DNA from: Phycisphaerales bacterium
GTDB taxonomy: Bacteria; Planctomycetota; Phycisphaerae; SM23-33; FEN-1343
Direction: 5' to 3'
NCBI GenBank assembly: GCA_003171335.1
Contig: PMYD01000080.1
Span: 1 to 47,292 of the forward strand
Length of the DNA stretch: 47,292 nt
Each line of letters begins with the position of its first letter. The first letter of the stretch is position 1. The position numbers and the translations under genes are program-made. The notes below the pieces were generated by a model, which was not told where the DNA came from, did no database searches, and was given only the letters and a program-made list of their open reading frames with translations. Below are positions 15,532 to 44,365 of this stretch, in pieces.

Positions 15532-15634
15532 CGCAAAGTGCCAAACCGATATCAACCAAATCTCATTGACGACCCTCGGCCGGCGCAATAGCCTCATGGC
15601 CACGCGATTTAAATGTTTTTTTGGAGGCTGTTAC

Positions 15635-28249: not shown

Positions 28250-28347
28250 CTAAGACAGCAAGTTTGGCGTGCGCCCGGTTACCCCCGCATTTATGCCATC
28301 TTAATAAATCTGTGGTAAAATGATTTCTCTGTATTAGGAGGCGTGGC

Positions 28348-39348: not shown

Positions 39349-40036
39349 AAAGTTGATAAACGGCGGGAATCCCATCGAAATTTCTGTTAGAAAATCGGCA
39401 CCGCCTCCTGCGGTCTCCTTTCTCCTCTCTACTTTCTGCTCTTGGACAGGACCTCGGATCGGGAAATCCCTGACTTCAAGGCGTCACCGATTGTTTTTTG
39501 ACTCTTTTCCGCCACGTTTGACCCGCCCGCCGGGCCGCGCCAAAGCACCTCCTCGCCCCTGCGGGCACGGCTTGCCAAAAAAGCGGCCTTTTTCGCCCCT
39601 CCACCACGACCTGTCGTGCATAGGACGCCTATAATCGCTATAGGTAGTGGTTGGTGCCCTGCCAAAAGGCAGAACCAGGCTCTGCGCAAAGGCAAAATTA
39701 AGAATTGACAAAGAAATCGATTATCTGTTAGGATGCGGTAAGGTATTGAATGCTGTTGATTCATAAAAATCGATATCGCTAAGACCGGAAATGGGTTCAA
39801 CTTGTGCGCATACACAATATTTCAGGTAATGCAGCTTGACCACCCACTACATGTAGGGTACCTTTCCGCACCATCGGGCCAGATGGCGGGCGCGGGAGCA
39901 GATGAGACTCACATCGGTCGCCCCGATTCTTGGGGTATGAGTTTTTCGATGCAAGTCTTTCTTTTGCAGGCCCTTGTCGCTGTTTGAGCCCTTCAGGCAC
40001 GCATGCCGGCCGCCAGGCCGGTTTTGGAGTGAAGCA
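39349..40036. other. Intergenic leader of nrdJ with promoter-like site
   Basis: The 688-bp gap has no gene. A small CTGCC-AAAA-GGCAG hairpin lies at 39659-39672. A TTGACA at 39705-39710, followed 18 nt later by TAGGAT at 39729-39734, is a plausible sigma-70-like promoter. If it drives nrdJ, the leader would be about 300 nt. I looked for a cobalamin riboswitch in this leader because the downstream enzyme uses B12; I do not see the B12 box. Confidence 0.45.
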
Positions 40037-43000
40037 ATGAAGGCGAAAGCCTCAGAGCACATAGATGGATCCGGGGCAAAGTCCGTGGGTTCCGATCGAA
40101 AGGCCACCGGCGGGCTGAAGGTCGAACGCCTCTTTTCCACCGCCGGCGTTCACCCGTTTGACCAGATCGAATGGGAGAAGCGCTCGGCGGCCATCAAGGA
40201 TAGCGACGGCCGCATCATCTTCCGCCAGGATGATGCCGAAGTGCCGGCCGCCTGGAGCCAGTTGGCCACCAACGTGGTGGTGAGCAAGTATTTCTACGGC
40301 GCCCAGGGCGGCAGCGAGCGCGAAAGCAGCGTCCGCCAGCTCATCGACCGCGTCACCCGCACCATCGCCGACTGGGTCGCCGCCGACGGCGTCTTGGCCT
40401 CGCCGGCCGATGCCCAGGTGTTCTACGACGAGCTGACCTGGCTGTGCGTCAACCAGTACGGCTCGTTCAATTCGCCGGCGTGGTTCAACGTGGGGCTCTT
40501 CCAGGCGCATGGCGTGGAGGGCTCGCCGGGCAGCTTCCACTGGGATAAAGCCGCCAACGCCGCGGCCCGCACGCAGAAGGGCTACGAGTACCCGCAGGCC
40601 TCGGCCTGCTTCATCCAGAGCGTTCGCGACGACATGGAGAGCATCATGGACCTGGCCAAGGCCGAGGCCATGCTCTTCAAGTTCGGCAGCGGCACGGGCA
40701 CGGATCTTTCCACGCTGCGCTCCAGCCGCGAGAAGCTCGCCGGCGGCGGCACGCCCTCGGGACCCTTGAGCTTCATGCGCGTGTACGACCAGGTGGCCGC
40801 CGTGGTCAAGAGCGGCGGCAAGACCCGCCGCGCCGCCAAGATGCAGTCGCTGCGCTGCGACCACCCGGATATCAAGGAATTCATCGAGGCCAAGAGCCGC
40901 GAGGAGAAGAAGGCCTGGGCGCTCATCGAGCAGGGCTACGACGGCAACTACAACGGCGAGGCCTACGCCAGCATCCTGTTCCAGAACGCCAATCTCTCCA
41001 TCCGCGTGACCGACGAATTCATGCAGGCCGCCCAGGCGGACCAGCTCTGGCAGACGCGCGAGATCACCACCGGCAAGCCCTCCACGCAGTACCGCGCCAA
41101 GGAGCTGCTGGACCTGATCGCCGAAGGCACGCGGATCTGCGGCGACCCCGGGGTGCAGTACCACAGCACGATCAACCGCTGGCACACCTGCCCCGCCGCC
41201 GGCACCATCAACGCCTCCAACCCGTGCAGCGAGTACATGTTCCTGGATGATTCGGCCTGCAACCTGGCCAGCCTGAACCTGATGAAGTTCCGCCAGGCCG
41301 ATGGCGGCTTCAACGTCGCGGCCTTCCGCCACGCCGTGCGGCTGTTTATTATCGCCCAGGAAACGCTGGTCGATCACGCCAGCTACCCCACCGAGCCCAT
41401 CTGCCGCAACAGCCACACGTACCGGCCGCTGGGGCTGGGCTACGCCAACCTGGGCTCGCTGCTCATGAGCCTGGGCCTGCCCTACGACAGCAACGCCGGC
41501 CGCGCCCTGGCGGCGGCCATCACGGCCATCCTGACCGGCGCCGCCTACGCCACCAGCGCCGAGCTGGCCAGCCGGCTGTCGCCCTTTGACGGCTGCACCG
41601 CCAACCGCGACTCGATGCTGCACGTCATGGACATGCACCGCGAGGCGGTCGAGCACATCGATGCCGCCTGCCCGCCGGCCATGCTGGCCGCGGCCCGCCA
41701 GGCGTGGGAAGAGGCCCTTGCCGCCGGCAGCCAATTGGGCTACCGCAACGCCCAGGTCAGCGTGCTGGCCCCCACGGGCACCATCGGCTTCATGATGGAC
41801 TGCGACACGACGGGCATCGAGCCGGATATCGCCCTGGTGAAGTACAAGCTGCTGGCCGGCGGCGGCATGTTCAAGATCGTCAACCGCACCGTGGCCCAGG
41901 CGCTGCGGCAGCTCGGGTACGACGAGGCGGCCATCAAGAACGTCCTGGCCTACGTCGAGGCGCACGACATGATCGAAGGCGCGCCGCTGCTGCGCGAGGA
42001 GCACCTGCCGGTGTTCGACTGCGCCTTTAAACCGGCCGCCGGGCAGCGCAGCATCAACTACATGGGCCACGTGCGCATGATGGCGGCCGTGCAGCCGTTC
42101 ATCTCCGGGGCGATCTCCAAGACCGTGAACATGCCCAAGGAGTCCACCGCCGCCGATATCCGCGATGTGTACGTGCAGGGCTGGAAGCTGGGCCTCAAGG
42201 CCATCGCCATCTACCGCGATGGCTCGAAGCGCTCCCAGCCCGTCAGTACGAAGAAGGACGACAAGTCCTCCGCGGCGCAGCAGGAGCCTGCCACCGCCCA
42301 GGCCCAGGCGCTGCTGGAAGAGGCCATGCGCCGGCCGCACCGCCGGCACCTGCCCGATACGCGGCAATCCCTCACCCATAAATTCGACATCGCCGGCCAC
42401 GAGGGCTACATCACCGTGGGCCTGTTCGACGATGGCGCGCCCGGCGAGGTCTTCATCACGATGGCCAAAGAAGGCTCGACGGTCGGCGGCATGATGGATG
42501 CCTTCGCCACGGCCATCAGCCTGTGCCTGCAGTACGGCGTGCCGCTGGAGTCGCTGGTGAAGAAGTTCAGCCACCAGCGCTTCGAGCCCAACGGCATGAC
42601 GACCAACCGCGATATCCCCTTCGCCAAGAGCATCGTGGACTACATTTTCCGCTGGTTGGGCCTGCGGTTCCTGGATGGCTACCGCAAGAGCAACCTGCCG
42701 CATCGACCCGCCGCGGGCGGGGCGAACCCATCGTCTGCAGCACCCGAGAGCGTCACGGAGGACGGAACCTCGGACCCTAGCCGCGCCGGCGAGGCCTCCG
42801 ACACGGAGGTCCATAGGCCCGTCGGCGATATTTTGAGCCCGCCCGATGCCGGCGGCAACGGCGAGGCCGCCAAGGCCGCGCCCCTGGCACGGGCCGCGCG
42901 CATCCGCAAAACATCGACCCTGGCGCGGGCCGGGCGCATCGACCAGCAGTTCACGCATTTCCAGGAAGATGCCCCGCCCTGCGATTACTGCGGATCCATC

Positions 43001-43063
43001 ACGGTCCGCAATGGCAACTGCTACAAGTGCTATACGTGCGGCAATTCCCTCGGGTGCAGCTAG
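40037..43063 (+). CDS. nrdJ: B12-dependent (class II) ribonucleotide reductase
   Basis: This is a 1008-residue enzyme that reduces ribonucleotides to deoxyribonucleotides with adenosylcobalamin, without oxygen. Visible family features are FNSPAWFNVG, FGSGTGTDLSTLRSSRE, the active-site Asn-x-Cys-x-Glu in NPCSEYMFLDDSACNLASLN, and the PTGTIGF loop in the C-terminal half. A linker of over 100 Ala/Pro-rich residues follows. The protein ends with the zinc ribbon CDYCGS and CYKCYTCGN that carries the redox cysteines. The start is ATG 40037 with GGAG seven nt upstream, not the TTG at 39974. The length matches the long TIGR02504-type form. It is expected to supply DNA precursors under low oxygen. Confidence 0.96.
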   Translation: MKAKASEHIDGSGAKSVGSDRKATGGLKVERLFSTAGVHPFDQIEWEKRSAAIKDSDGRIIFRQDDAEVPAAWSQLATNVVVSKYFYGAQGGSERESSVRQLIDRVTRTIADWVAADGVLASPADAQVFYDELTWLCVNQYGSFNSPAWFNVGLFQAHGVEGSPGSFHWDKAANAAARTQKGYEYPQASACFIQSVRDDMESIMDLAKAEAMLFKFGSGTGTDLSTLRSSREKLAGGGTPSGPLSFMRVYDQVAAVVKSGGKTRRAAKMQSLRCDHPDIKEFIEAKSREEKKAWALIEQGYDGNYNGEAYASILFQNANLSIRVTDEFMQAAQADQLWQTREITTGKPSTQYRAKELLDLIAEGTRICGDPGVQYHSTINRWHTCPAAGTINASNPCSEYMFLDDSACNLASLNLMKFRQADGGFNVAAFRHAVRLFIIAQETLVDHASYPTEPICRNSHTYRPLGLGYANLGSLLMSLGLPYDSNAGRALAAAITAILTGAAYATSAELASRLSPFDGCTANRDSMLHVMDMHREAVEHIDAACPPAMLAAARQAWEEALAAGSQLGYRNAQVSVLAPTGTIGFMMDCDTTGIEPDIALVKYKLLAGGGMFKIVNRTVAQALRQLGYDEAAIKNVLAYVEAHDMIEGAPLLREEHLPVFDCAFKPAAGQRSINYMGHVRMMAAVQPFISGAISKTVNMPKESTAADIRDVYVQGWKLGLKAIAIYRDGSKRSQPVSTKKDDKSSAAQQEPATAQAQALLEEAMRRPHRRHLPDTRQSLTHKFDIAGHEGYITVGLFDDGAPGEVFITMAKEGSTVGGMMDAFATAISLCLQYGVPLESLVKKFSHQRFEPNGMTTNRDIPFAKSIVDYIFRWLGLRFLDGYRKSNLPHRPAAGGANPSSAAPESVTEDGTSDPSRAGEASDTEVHRPVGDILSPPDAGGNGEAAKAAPLARAARIRKTSTLARAGRIDQQFTHFQEDAPPCDYCGSITVRNGNCYKCYTCGNSLGCS

Positions 43064-43479: not shown

Positions 43480-43507
43480 TTGACATCAAAAGAGCCGTCC
43501 CTAGAAT
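43480..43507 (+). promoter_or_regulatory. Sigma-70-like promoter
   Basis: TTGACA at 43480-43485 is a perfect -35. TAGAAT at 43502-43507 matches the -10 consensus at five of six positions, with 16 nt between. An AT-rich stretch with T-runs lies upstream. Transcription would start near 43514 and run into a three-hairpin RNA. Confidence 0.7.
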
Positions 43508-43513
43508 CGCGAT

Positions 43514-43622
43514 TGTCCGCTGCACCCCGCGGATAGCAGGTCTCCCTCCACCTGCATCTGGGTTGCGGCAACTGAGCCCGATGCCCCAGGTCTCCCTCCA
43601 CCTGGGCATCGGGACTTTTTTT
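43514..43622 (+). ncRNA. Candidate small RNA with three C-rich hairpin loops
   Basis: Downstream of the promoter, about 109 nt fold into three consecutive hairpins. Hairpin 1 is TCCGC/GCGGA with loop TGCACCCC (43516-43533). Hairpin 2 is GCAGGT/ACCTGC with loop CTCCCTCC (43536-43555). Hairpin 3 is a 14-bp stem with one bulged C and the same loop CTCCCTCC (43577-43613), followed by seven T, and is a strong rho-independent terminator. Every loop is eight nt and C-rich, and the last two match the anti-Shine-Dalgarno sequence. CAGGTCTCCCTCCACCTG is identical in hairpins 2 and 3. No start codon with a ribosome site occurs in it. I infer a trans-acting regulator that pairs with ribosome-binding sites, similar in idea to alphaproteobacterial cuckoo RNAs. 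It could also be a leader attenuator of leuD. Confidence 0.6.
43577..43622 (+). terminator. Rho-independent terminator
   Basis: The stem CCCGATGCC(C)CAGGT pairs with ACCTGGGCATCGGG around an eight-nt loop. AC and then seven T follow at 43616-43622. It is the strongest terminator structure in the window and ends the small RNA candidate. Confidence 0.85.
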
Positions 43623-43801
43623 GGCATTGCTTGGTGGCACAGGCTTCCGGCTTGGTGGCACAGGCTTTTAGCCTGTGTCCCCGCTCGTCCTTCTGATACC
43701 GAATCGCAAATCCAGAATCGCCAACGCTCGCTCGCTGGCAACCGACCCAGGCCTTCAATACAATGTCTGGCGCTACGGGCGGAAACAGGAAAGGCGGAGA
43801 A

Positions 43802-44365
43802 ATGGAACCGCGGATTACCGGCAAAGTTTTTGTCCTGGGCGACAACATCGATACCGACCAGATCATTCCGGCCGAGTATCTCAGCTACAACCCGGCTCTG
43901 CCCGAGGAGCGGCGGCAGTTCGGCCGCCTGGCCCTTTCTGGCGTGCCGCTGGCACAATCGGGCCTGCCCAAGGGCAACTGCCGCTTCGTCCAGGAAGGCA
44001 AGTTCAAGACGGATTACGCCGTCATCCTGGGCGGCAAGAACTTCGGCTGCGGCAGCTCGCGCGAGCATGCCCCGCTGGCCATCGCCGAGGCGGGCGTGAA
44101 GGTGGTCGTGGCCGAGTTTTACGCCCGCATCTTCTACCGCAACAGCATCAACGGCGGCTACCTCGTGCCGCTGGAGACGCCCAGCCGGCTCGTCGAGCAG
44201 TTTTCCACCGGCGATGAGGTGGAGGTGGACCTGGCGGCTCCGGCCATCACCAACCGCACCACCGGCAAGAGCTTCGCCCTGAGCCCGCTGGGCCAGGCCG
44301 GCCCCATCATCCTGGCCGGCGGCGTTTTCGAATACGCCCGCAAGACGGGCCTCTTGGCCCGGTAA
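43802..44365 (+). CDS. leuD: 3-isopropylmalate dehydratase small subunit
   Basis: This 187-residue aconitase-swivel-domain protein has GDNIDTDQIIPAEYL at residues 14-28 and the hallmark GGKNFGCGSSREHAPLAI, then EFYARIFYRNSINGGYLVP. It is the small subunit of isopropylmalate isomerase in leucine synthesis and needs a LeuC partner, which is not in the window. Homoaconitase or citraconate-type relatives share the same fold. An ATG at 43763 is open, but ATG at 43802 follows GGCGGAG and starts two residues before the family's usual start. It is about 180 nt downstream of the small RNA terminator. A bidirectional terminator follows. Confidence 0.9.
   Translation: MEPRITGKVFVLGDNIDTDQIIPAEYLSYNPALPEERRQFGRLALSGVPLAQSGLPKGNCRFVQEGKFKTDYAVILGGKNFGCGSSREHAPLAIAEAGVKVVVAEFYARIFYRNSINGGYLVPLETPSRLVEQFSTGDEVEVDLAAPAITNRTTGKSFALSPLGQAGPIILAGGVFEYARKTGLLAR

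Follow-up and report, generated by a model that had tools for sequence, protein, structure and literature searches.

An order-wide family of putative small RNAs with repeated C-rich loops in SM23-33 planctomycetes

In the 47,292 nt contig PMYD01000080.1 of the Phycisphaerales bacterium assembly GCA_003171335.1 (the whole of which is referred to below as the window), the DNA between nrdJ and a leuD-family gene had been suggested to encode a small RNA (sRNA) with C-rich loops complementary to ribosome-binding sites. This raises the questions of whether such a gene exists at this locus and, if so, what its loops might recognise. The near-consensus promoter and strong terminator on which the original prediction was founded are both present (Table 1), the latter consisting of the hairpin at 43577-43613 and the T-run that follows it. 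As had also been claimed, the unit contains no conserved coding frame, and the fold of the locus has a z-score of -3.6 relative to dinucleotide shuffles. The bounds assigned to the sRNA are the limits of the block conserved in 28 aligned homologues.

Table 1. Features of the sRNA locus, its neighbours and the second-family copy in the same genome; positions refer to the window unless another contig is named.
Feature	Position	Strand	Basis or remark
nrdJ, vitamin B12-dependent class II ribonucleotide reductase	39974..43063	+	NF005122, 1410 bits; exact start codon uncertain
Sigma-70-like promoter, TTGACA-16-TAGAAT	43480..43507	+	11/12 consensus matches; 4 nt before conserved RNA start
Type I sRNA, 111 nt	43512..43622	+	Full-length match to covariance model R1, 100.5 bits; exact 5' end predicted
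P1 5' strand, GCUGCACCC	43519..43527	+	Partner is 43560-43569; near-invariant in nrdJ-linked copies
P2 stem 5' strand, GCAGGU	43536..43541	+	Alignment of 28, pair counts
Loop 1, CUCCCUCC, 8 nt	43542..43549	+	Near-invariant; unpaired probability 1.0
P2 stem 3' strand, ACCUGC	43550..43555	+	Alignment of 28, pair counts
P1 3' strand, GGGUUGCGGC, one bulged U	43560..43569	+	Conservation, pair counts, ensemble
P3 terminator stem 5' strand	43577..43591	+	13/15 pairs with compensatory changes
Loop 2, CUCCCUCC, 8 nt	43592..43599	+	Near-invariant; unpaired probability 1.0
P3 terminator stem 3' strand	43600..43613	+	Alignment of 28, pair counts
U-run, intrinsic terminator (seven T)	43616..43622	+	Sequence
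leuD-family gene, downstream neighbour	43763..44365	+	TIGR02087, over cut-off
R3 copy, own genome	C118:40329-40406 (L234:1501-1578); further loci L227-L246		Model match

These signals recur in related genomes. Good promoters lie directly upstream of the element at 20 of 64 family loci, and at none of the 64 in a control region 100-160 nt upstream, with shuffled sequences giving an average of 1.3; the 3' end carries TTTT at 26 of 29 primary loci. Judged by sequence only, the element thus has the promoter and intrinsic terminator of its own that mark an independent sRNA gene, and 43512-43622 almost certainly represents one. A promoter-like arrangement is common to several of the upstream regions (L004, L007, L009, L011, L020, L023 and L026), in which a TAAAG-type box precedes CCGA(A) by approximately 17-18 nt and TATAAT often comes next; the box is retained in L004 and L026 although the -10 sequence has decayed, and could be the mark of a particular sigma factor or activator. 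Downstream of the sRNA, at 43629-43680, is a short dispersed palindromic repeat (GGTGGCACAGGCTT..AGCCTGTG), similar pieces of which occur near the sRNA loci of other genera.

When 60 related genomes were compared by BLAST, most of those belonging to the window's own order, SM23-33 of the Phycisphaerae, a fermentative and uncultured group (PMC11266412), proved to carry the element, at 73-85% identity, and it was not found elsewhere. The covariance search of planctomycete genomes that had been suggested was carried out with a model (R1) of 111 positions and 33 pairs, built from 28 homologues. Matches were found in all 38 genomes of the order, most scoring 98-123 bits and usually in one to five copies, this total including two genomes (G003 and G031) with only weak, diverged matches that belong to the second family described below. 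Outside the order, approximately 640 other genomes from the class and phylum yielded no convincing member. A survey of around 260 further genomes of the class gave four weak matches, all below 28 bits, of which two (L097 and L099) lie inside what reads as one protein-coding sequence and two (L096 and L098) look like chance; a broader model applied to 392 genomes of the phylum had no match outside the window's own genome. An exact scan of a named genome collection for the double motif returned 30 contigs, every one from a metagenome assembly of a planctomycete or a member of the Phycisphaerae; bacterium SM23_33 and fen_1344 are among them. At the gathering threshold, Rfam had no match in the window, and more permissive thresholds added no family. 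The literature, too, yielded no account of small RNAs from SM23-33; the family is an undescribed one, distributed across the order, of a known kind of regulator.

The presence of several copies per genome might be expected of a functionless dispersed repeat or mobile element, a concern that prompted the suggestion to count copies of the 18-mer shared by the two hairpins. That count found one more, diverged copy in the genome of the window, which is a full-length type I paralogue (C100:14639-14748). Given that copies number one to five and are diverged, that their stems covary and their synteny is conserved, and that viral contigs, phages and plasmids contain no family member, this explanation is refuted, and can be regarded as vanishingly improbable. 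A type I paralogue retains its place between a lptD-like gene and a gluQ-like one in three genomes belonging to a single genus (L067, L069 and L073). Another genome (G018, contig 140; L085:2375-3090) has a tandem array of a C-rich RNA with two hairpins, whose four copies have diverged and are spaced at intervals of approximately 195-236 nt, reminiscent of CcsR1-4 arrays.

The position of the primary copy is itself conserved. The same-strand upstream neighbour is nrdJ at 25 of 29 primary loci, with the sRNA 170-580 nt downstream of it, and five more genomes (L065, L068, L111, L113 and L121) have an nrdJ-linked copy, making at least 30 of the 38; leuD is downstream at 11 of the 29, about a third of genomes. 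With a terminator at its end, the element might therefore be a structured terminator or 3' untranslated element acting on nrdJ in cis, or an sRNA derived from the nrdJ 3' untranslated region. However, promoters are found at the 5' end of the sRNA itself, and many paralogues lie away from nrdJ, such as the second copy in the window's own genome and those beside the lptD-like and gluQ-like genes. The spacer between nrdJ and the sRNA cannot be aligned between genera apart from short pieces, nor does it hold a second element conserved beyond the genus level other than such pieces, whilst the RNA is 73-85% identical; hence the sRNA is a unit of its own, and a role as part of nrdJ is very unlikely.

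RNAalifold and pair counts agree on an architecture in which P1 (GCUGCACCC/GGGUUGCGGC) encloses the hairpin P2, followed by the terminator hairpin P3. Of the three consecutive C-loop hairpins originally described, those at 43536-43555 and 43577-43613 are upheld, their identical 8 nt CUCCCUCC loops being fully unpaired in the ensemble. The first (UGUCCGC/GCGGAUA) has a partition-function probability of approximately zero and a 3' arm that is not conserved; instead GUCCGCUGCACCC, the conserved 5' element, pairs with GGGUUGCGGC, the outer pairs having probabilities of approximately 0.97. The RNA is therefore predicted to carry a pair of C-rich loops together with a closing stem, rather than three successive hairpins with such loops. 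Across 54 primary and paralogous copies, changes on both sides are seen in 28 of the 33 pairs, including seven of the nine in P1, and the observed covariation was reached by none of 500 shuffles; this 54-row alignment was fitted to the covariance model, and a 28-row MAFFT alignment also exceeds 500 of 500 shuffles in covariation score. Whilst the stems covary, both loops are near-invariant, exactly 8 nt long in nearly all copies and unpaired in the ensembles of all 28 homologues, and the two G-C pairs adjoining each loop are essentially invariant in the 54 sequences.

The make-up of the base pairs distinguishes the two strands. The reverse complement has GGA within hairpin loops, and CsrA is present in 33 of the 38 genomes, so an RNA transcribed from the opposite strand, with two GGAGGGAG loops, might be imagined to sequester this protein. 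Yet base-paired cells on the plus strand comprise 202 G-U and 24 A-C combinations, the reverse of what is expected for a minus-strand RNA, and the promoters and U-runs are also on the plus strand. The covariation hence shows that the predicted transcript is the C-loop strand, making a CsrA sponge encoded on the other strand extremely unlikely.

A second conserved RNA, approximately 80 nt long and here termed R3, came to light through weak matches of the type I model; it has the consensus AGGCUCCUCGGYC..CUCCCUCC..GRCCGAG..GGCGUCAGG CUCCCCUCC CCUGACGCC UUUU. It consists of two hairpins with CUCCC-type loops and a terminator, and has no Rfam match. Strong matches to it were found in approximately 30 of the 38 genomes, including that of the window; in the loci that were read, it is flanked by a nadD-like gene and a coaD-like one. 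R3 and type I have only the CUCCC-type loop in common, and differ in loop size and in the GGU/ACC stem context. This recurrence of the loop type without the stem context indicates that the loop sequence is the functional element, and that a C-rich-loop sequence code is used at least twice in SM23-33 genomes.

The reading that we favour, to which we assign a probability of roughly 0.58, is that type I is a trans-acting sRNA that pairs with G-rich mRNA segments independently of a chaperone, in the manner of 6C/B11 or NfeR1; that it pairs through the CUCCCUCC loops is judged a little better than an even bet. It is suggested by the near-invariant, unpaired loops and the covarying stems, by the same loop type in R3, by the precedent of B11, and by the complement of host factors: neither Hfq nor ProQ was found in any of the 38 genomes, with positive controls. 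The two fully exposed loops would serve as redundant seeds for G-rich segments, with a core of GGAGGGA or GGGAG, in a restricted group of mRNAs, at or near the points where their translation begins. This pairing would keep ribosomes from entering, leave the mRNA open to decay, or both. The strength of G-C pairing alone would suffice, making Hfq or ProQ unnecessary. P1 would hold hairpin 2 in an accessible position and shield the 5' end, and P3 would act as both the terminator and the second seed.

The original prediction envisaged a broader effect, in which an anti-Shine-Dalgarno RNA damps the translation of many genes led by GGAGG. The loop does contain CUCC/CCUCC, and the four ribosome-binding sites named as examples within the window exist (GGAGG at 15623 and 22368; AGGAGG at 28336 and 3066). 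However, the dominant Shine-Dalgarno sequence of this genome is AGGAG, with which CUCCCUCC pairs over only 4 nt. Target statistics were calculated from 0.92 Mb of the genome together with pattern counts, using 586 genes identified by a simple codon-usage script rather than a trained annotator, on which the anti-Shine-Dalgarno positive control works: complements of the 16S anti-Shine-Dalgarno are found at the start regions of 84 genes, against 31 for shuffles, with one of 300 shuffles as high. Complements of the loop occur at 18, against 16.9, and 166 of 300 shuffles are as high. Any C-rich octamer gives some excess at starts, and amongst 28 permutations of its own letters CUCCCUCC ranks only 14th as an anti-Shine-Dalgarno; CTCCTCCC, the permutation that resembles the cuckoo motif, would come first. 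The exact octamer complement GGAGGGAG precedes ATG five times in the whole genome, against seven for the reversed control. With the loop unenriched relative to shuffles, average among its permutations and matched no more often than a control, broad action on Shine-Dalgarno sequences is not supported, and we consider it decidedly improbable.

The lack of enrichment at the starts of these 586 genes also counts against the favoured pairing mechanism, as do the near-invariant G-C pairs next to the loops, a constraint not needed for pairing by the loops alone. Targets may be limited in number, or the G-rich sites may lie outside Shine-Dalgarno sequences; the authors of the B11 study noted that computation predicts targets of this kind poorly (PMC12395582). 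Across the order GGAGGGAGA precedes ATG approximately threefold more often than the control, once sites antisense to the sRNA itself are taken into account, and among approximately 30 sites that were read no recurrent gene lies behind a perfect loop complement before ATG. A DksA/TraR-like gene in the window's own genome (L195; C135:29243) has a start region with GGAGGGAGAAATG, a 9 nt perfect complement of the loop region. It is the best candidate target in this genome on the basis of sequence, and its recurrence in other genomes was not seen.

The same invariant pairs could alternatively reflect recognition by a protein. Each RNA has two near-identical 14 nt hairpin tops, GGU-CUCCCUCC-RCC, with invariant loop-closing G-C pairs and 8 nt loops that are exact in nearly all copies; several copies are found per genome, and complementarity to ribosome-binding sites is not enriched, all of which would suit a sponge that titrates an RNA-binding protein, as a C-rich mirror of CsrB/RsmZ. 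CsrB-type sponges carry many sites, though, and here there are only two per RNA; R3 also retains the CUCCC loop without the GGU/ACC context or the loop size. We regard this explanation as unlikely. Unlikely, too, is a wider scheme in which at least two unrelated sRNA families sharing a CUCCC(U)CC loop would form an order-wide, chaperone-free riboregulatory network, read by a putative RNA-binding protein specific for the invariant GG-loop-CC hairpin, as a C-rich counterpart of Csr.

The original prediction of an independent C-rich-loop sRNA, analogous to cuckoo RNAs but without a known planctomycete family, finds strong support in conservation, covariation, the family's own promoters and the lack of an Rfam match. 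The model is searchable in metatranscriptomes, and the link to nrdJ and the presence of R3 in the same genomes make the targets and the shared code testable. As regards systems already characterised, the resemblance to CsrB/RsmZ sponges is that identical hairpin loops are repeated within one small RNA; however, the SM23-33 loops carry the complement of GGA instead of GGA itself, number only two, and are on the strand that excludes a CsrA sponge. The CcsR1-4 RNAs of Rhodobacter (RF02791) are similar in their C/U-rich loops, and their tandem copies have a parallel in the four-copy array in G018. Nevertheless, the sRNA locus scores just 12 bits (E 5.8) with the CcsR1 model, against a gathering threshold of 65.3, and none of the 38 SM23-33 genomes contains the DUF1127 gene family associated with CcsR (at the CIN1 locus).

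The alpha-r14 or cuckoo RNAs of Rhizobiales (NfeR1, SmelA075/A099) likewise place an identical, near-invariant pyrimidine loop in successive hairpins with variable stems, and are Hfq-independent (PMC10746234, PMC3927594); the three loops of NfeR1, all of them CCUCCUCCC, serve as redundant seeds (PMC10746234). Their motif occurs in three or four loops, and fits the Shine-Dalgarno sequences of this genome better than does CUCCCUCC, the motif in nearly all of the homologues described here. In the case of 6C/B11, from actinobacteria including mycobacteria, the likeness extends to C-rich-loop hairpins, one of which is the intrinsic terminator, and to hosts without Hfq and ProQ, in which B11 uses its C-rich terminator loop to base-pair with G tracts adjoining ribosome-binding sites (PMC12395582); extra copies are also found in some genomes (PMC9569102). 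The loops of the SM23-33 sRNA are exposed and may act in this way, with an enrichment at ribosome-binding sites that does not rise above shuffles. The differences are the lack of an Rfam match, the 6C model having no match at gathering in the window and none at E≤10 in the locus, the phylum, the use of CUCCCUCC rather than C runs, the closing stem P1 and the synteny with nrdJ. By sequence the sRNA is related to neither 6C/B11 nor NfeR1, and it would represent a further, independently arisen case of the C-rich-loop strategy of mycobacteria and rhizobia, order-wide, with the strongest constraint on the loops, and in hosts that lack both Hfq and ProQ.
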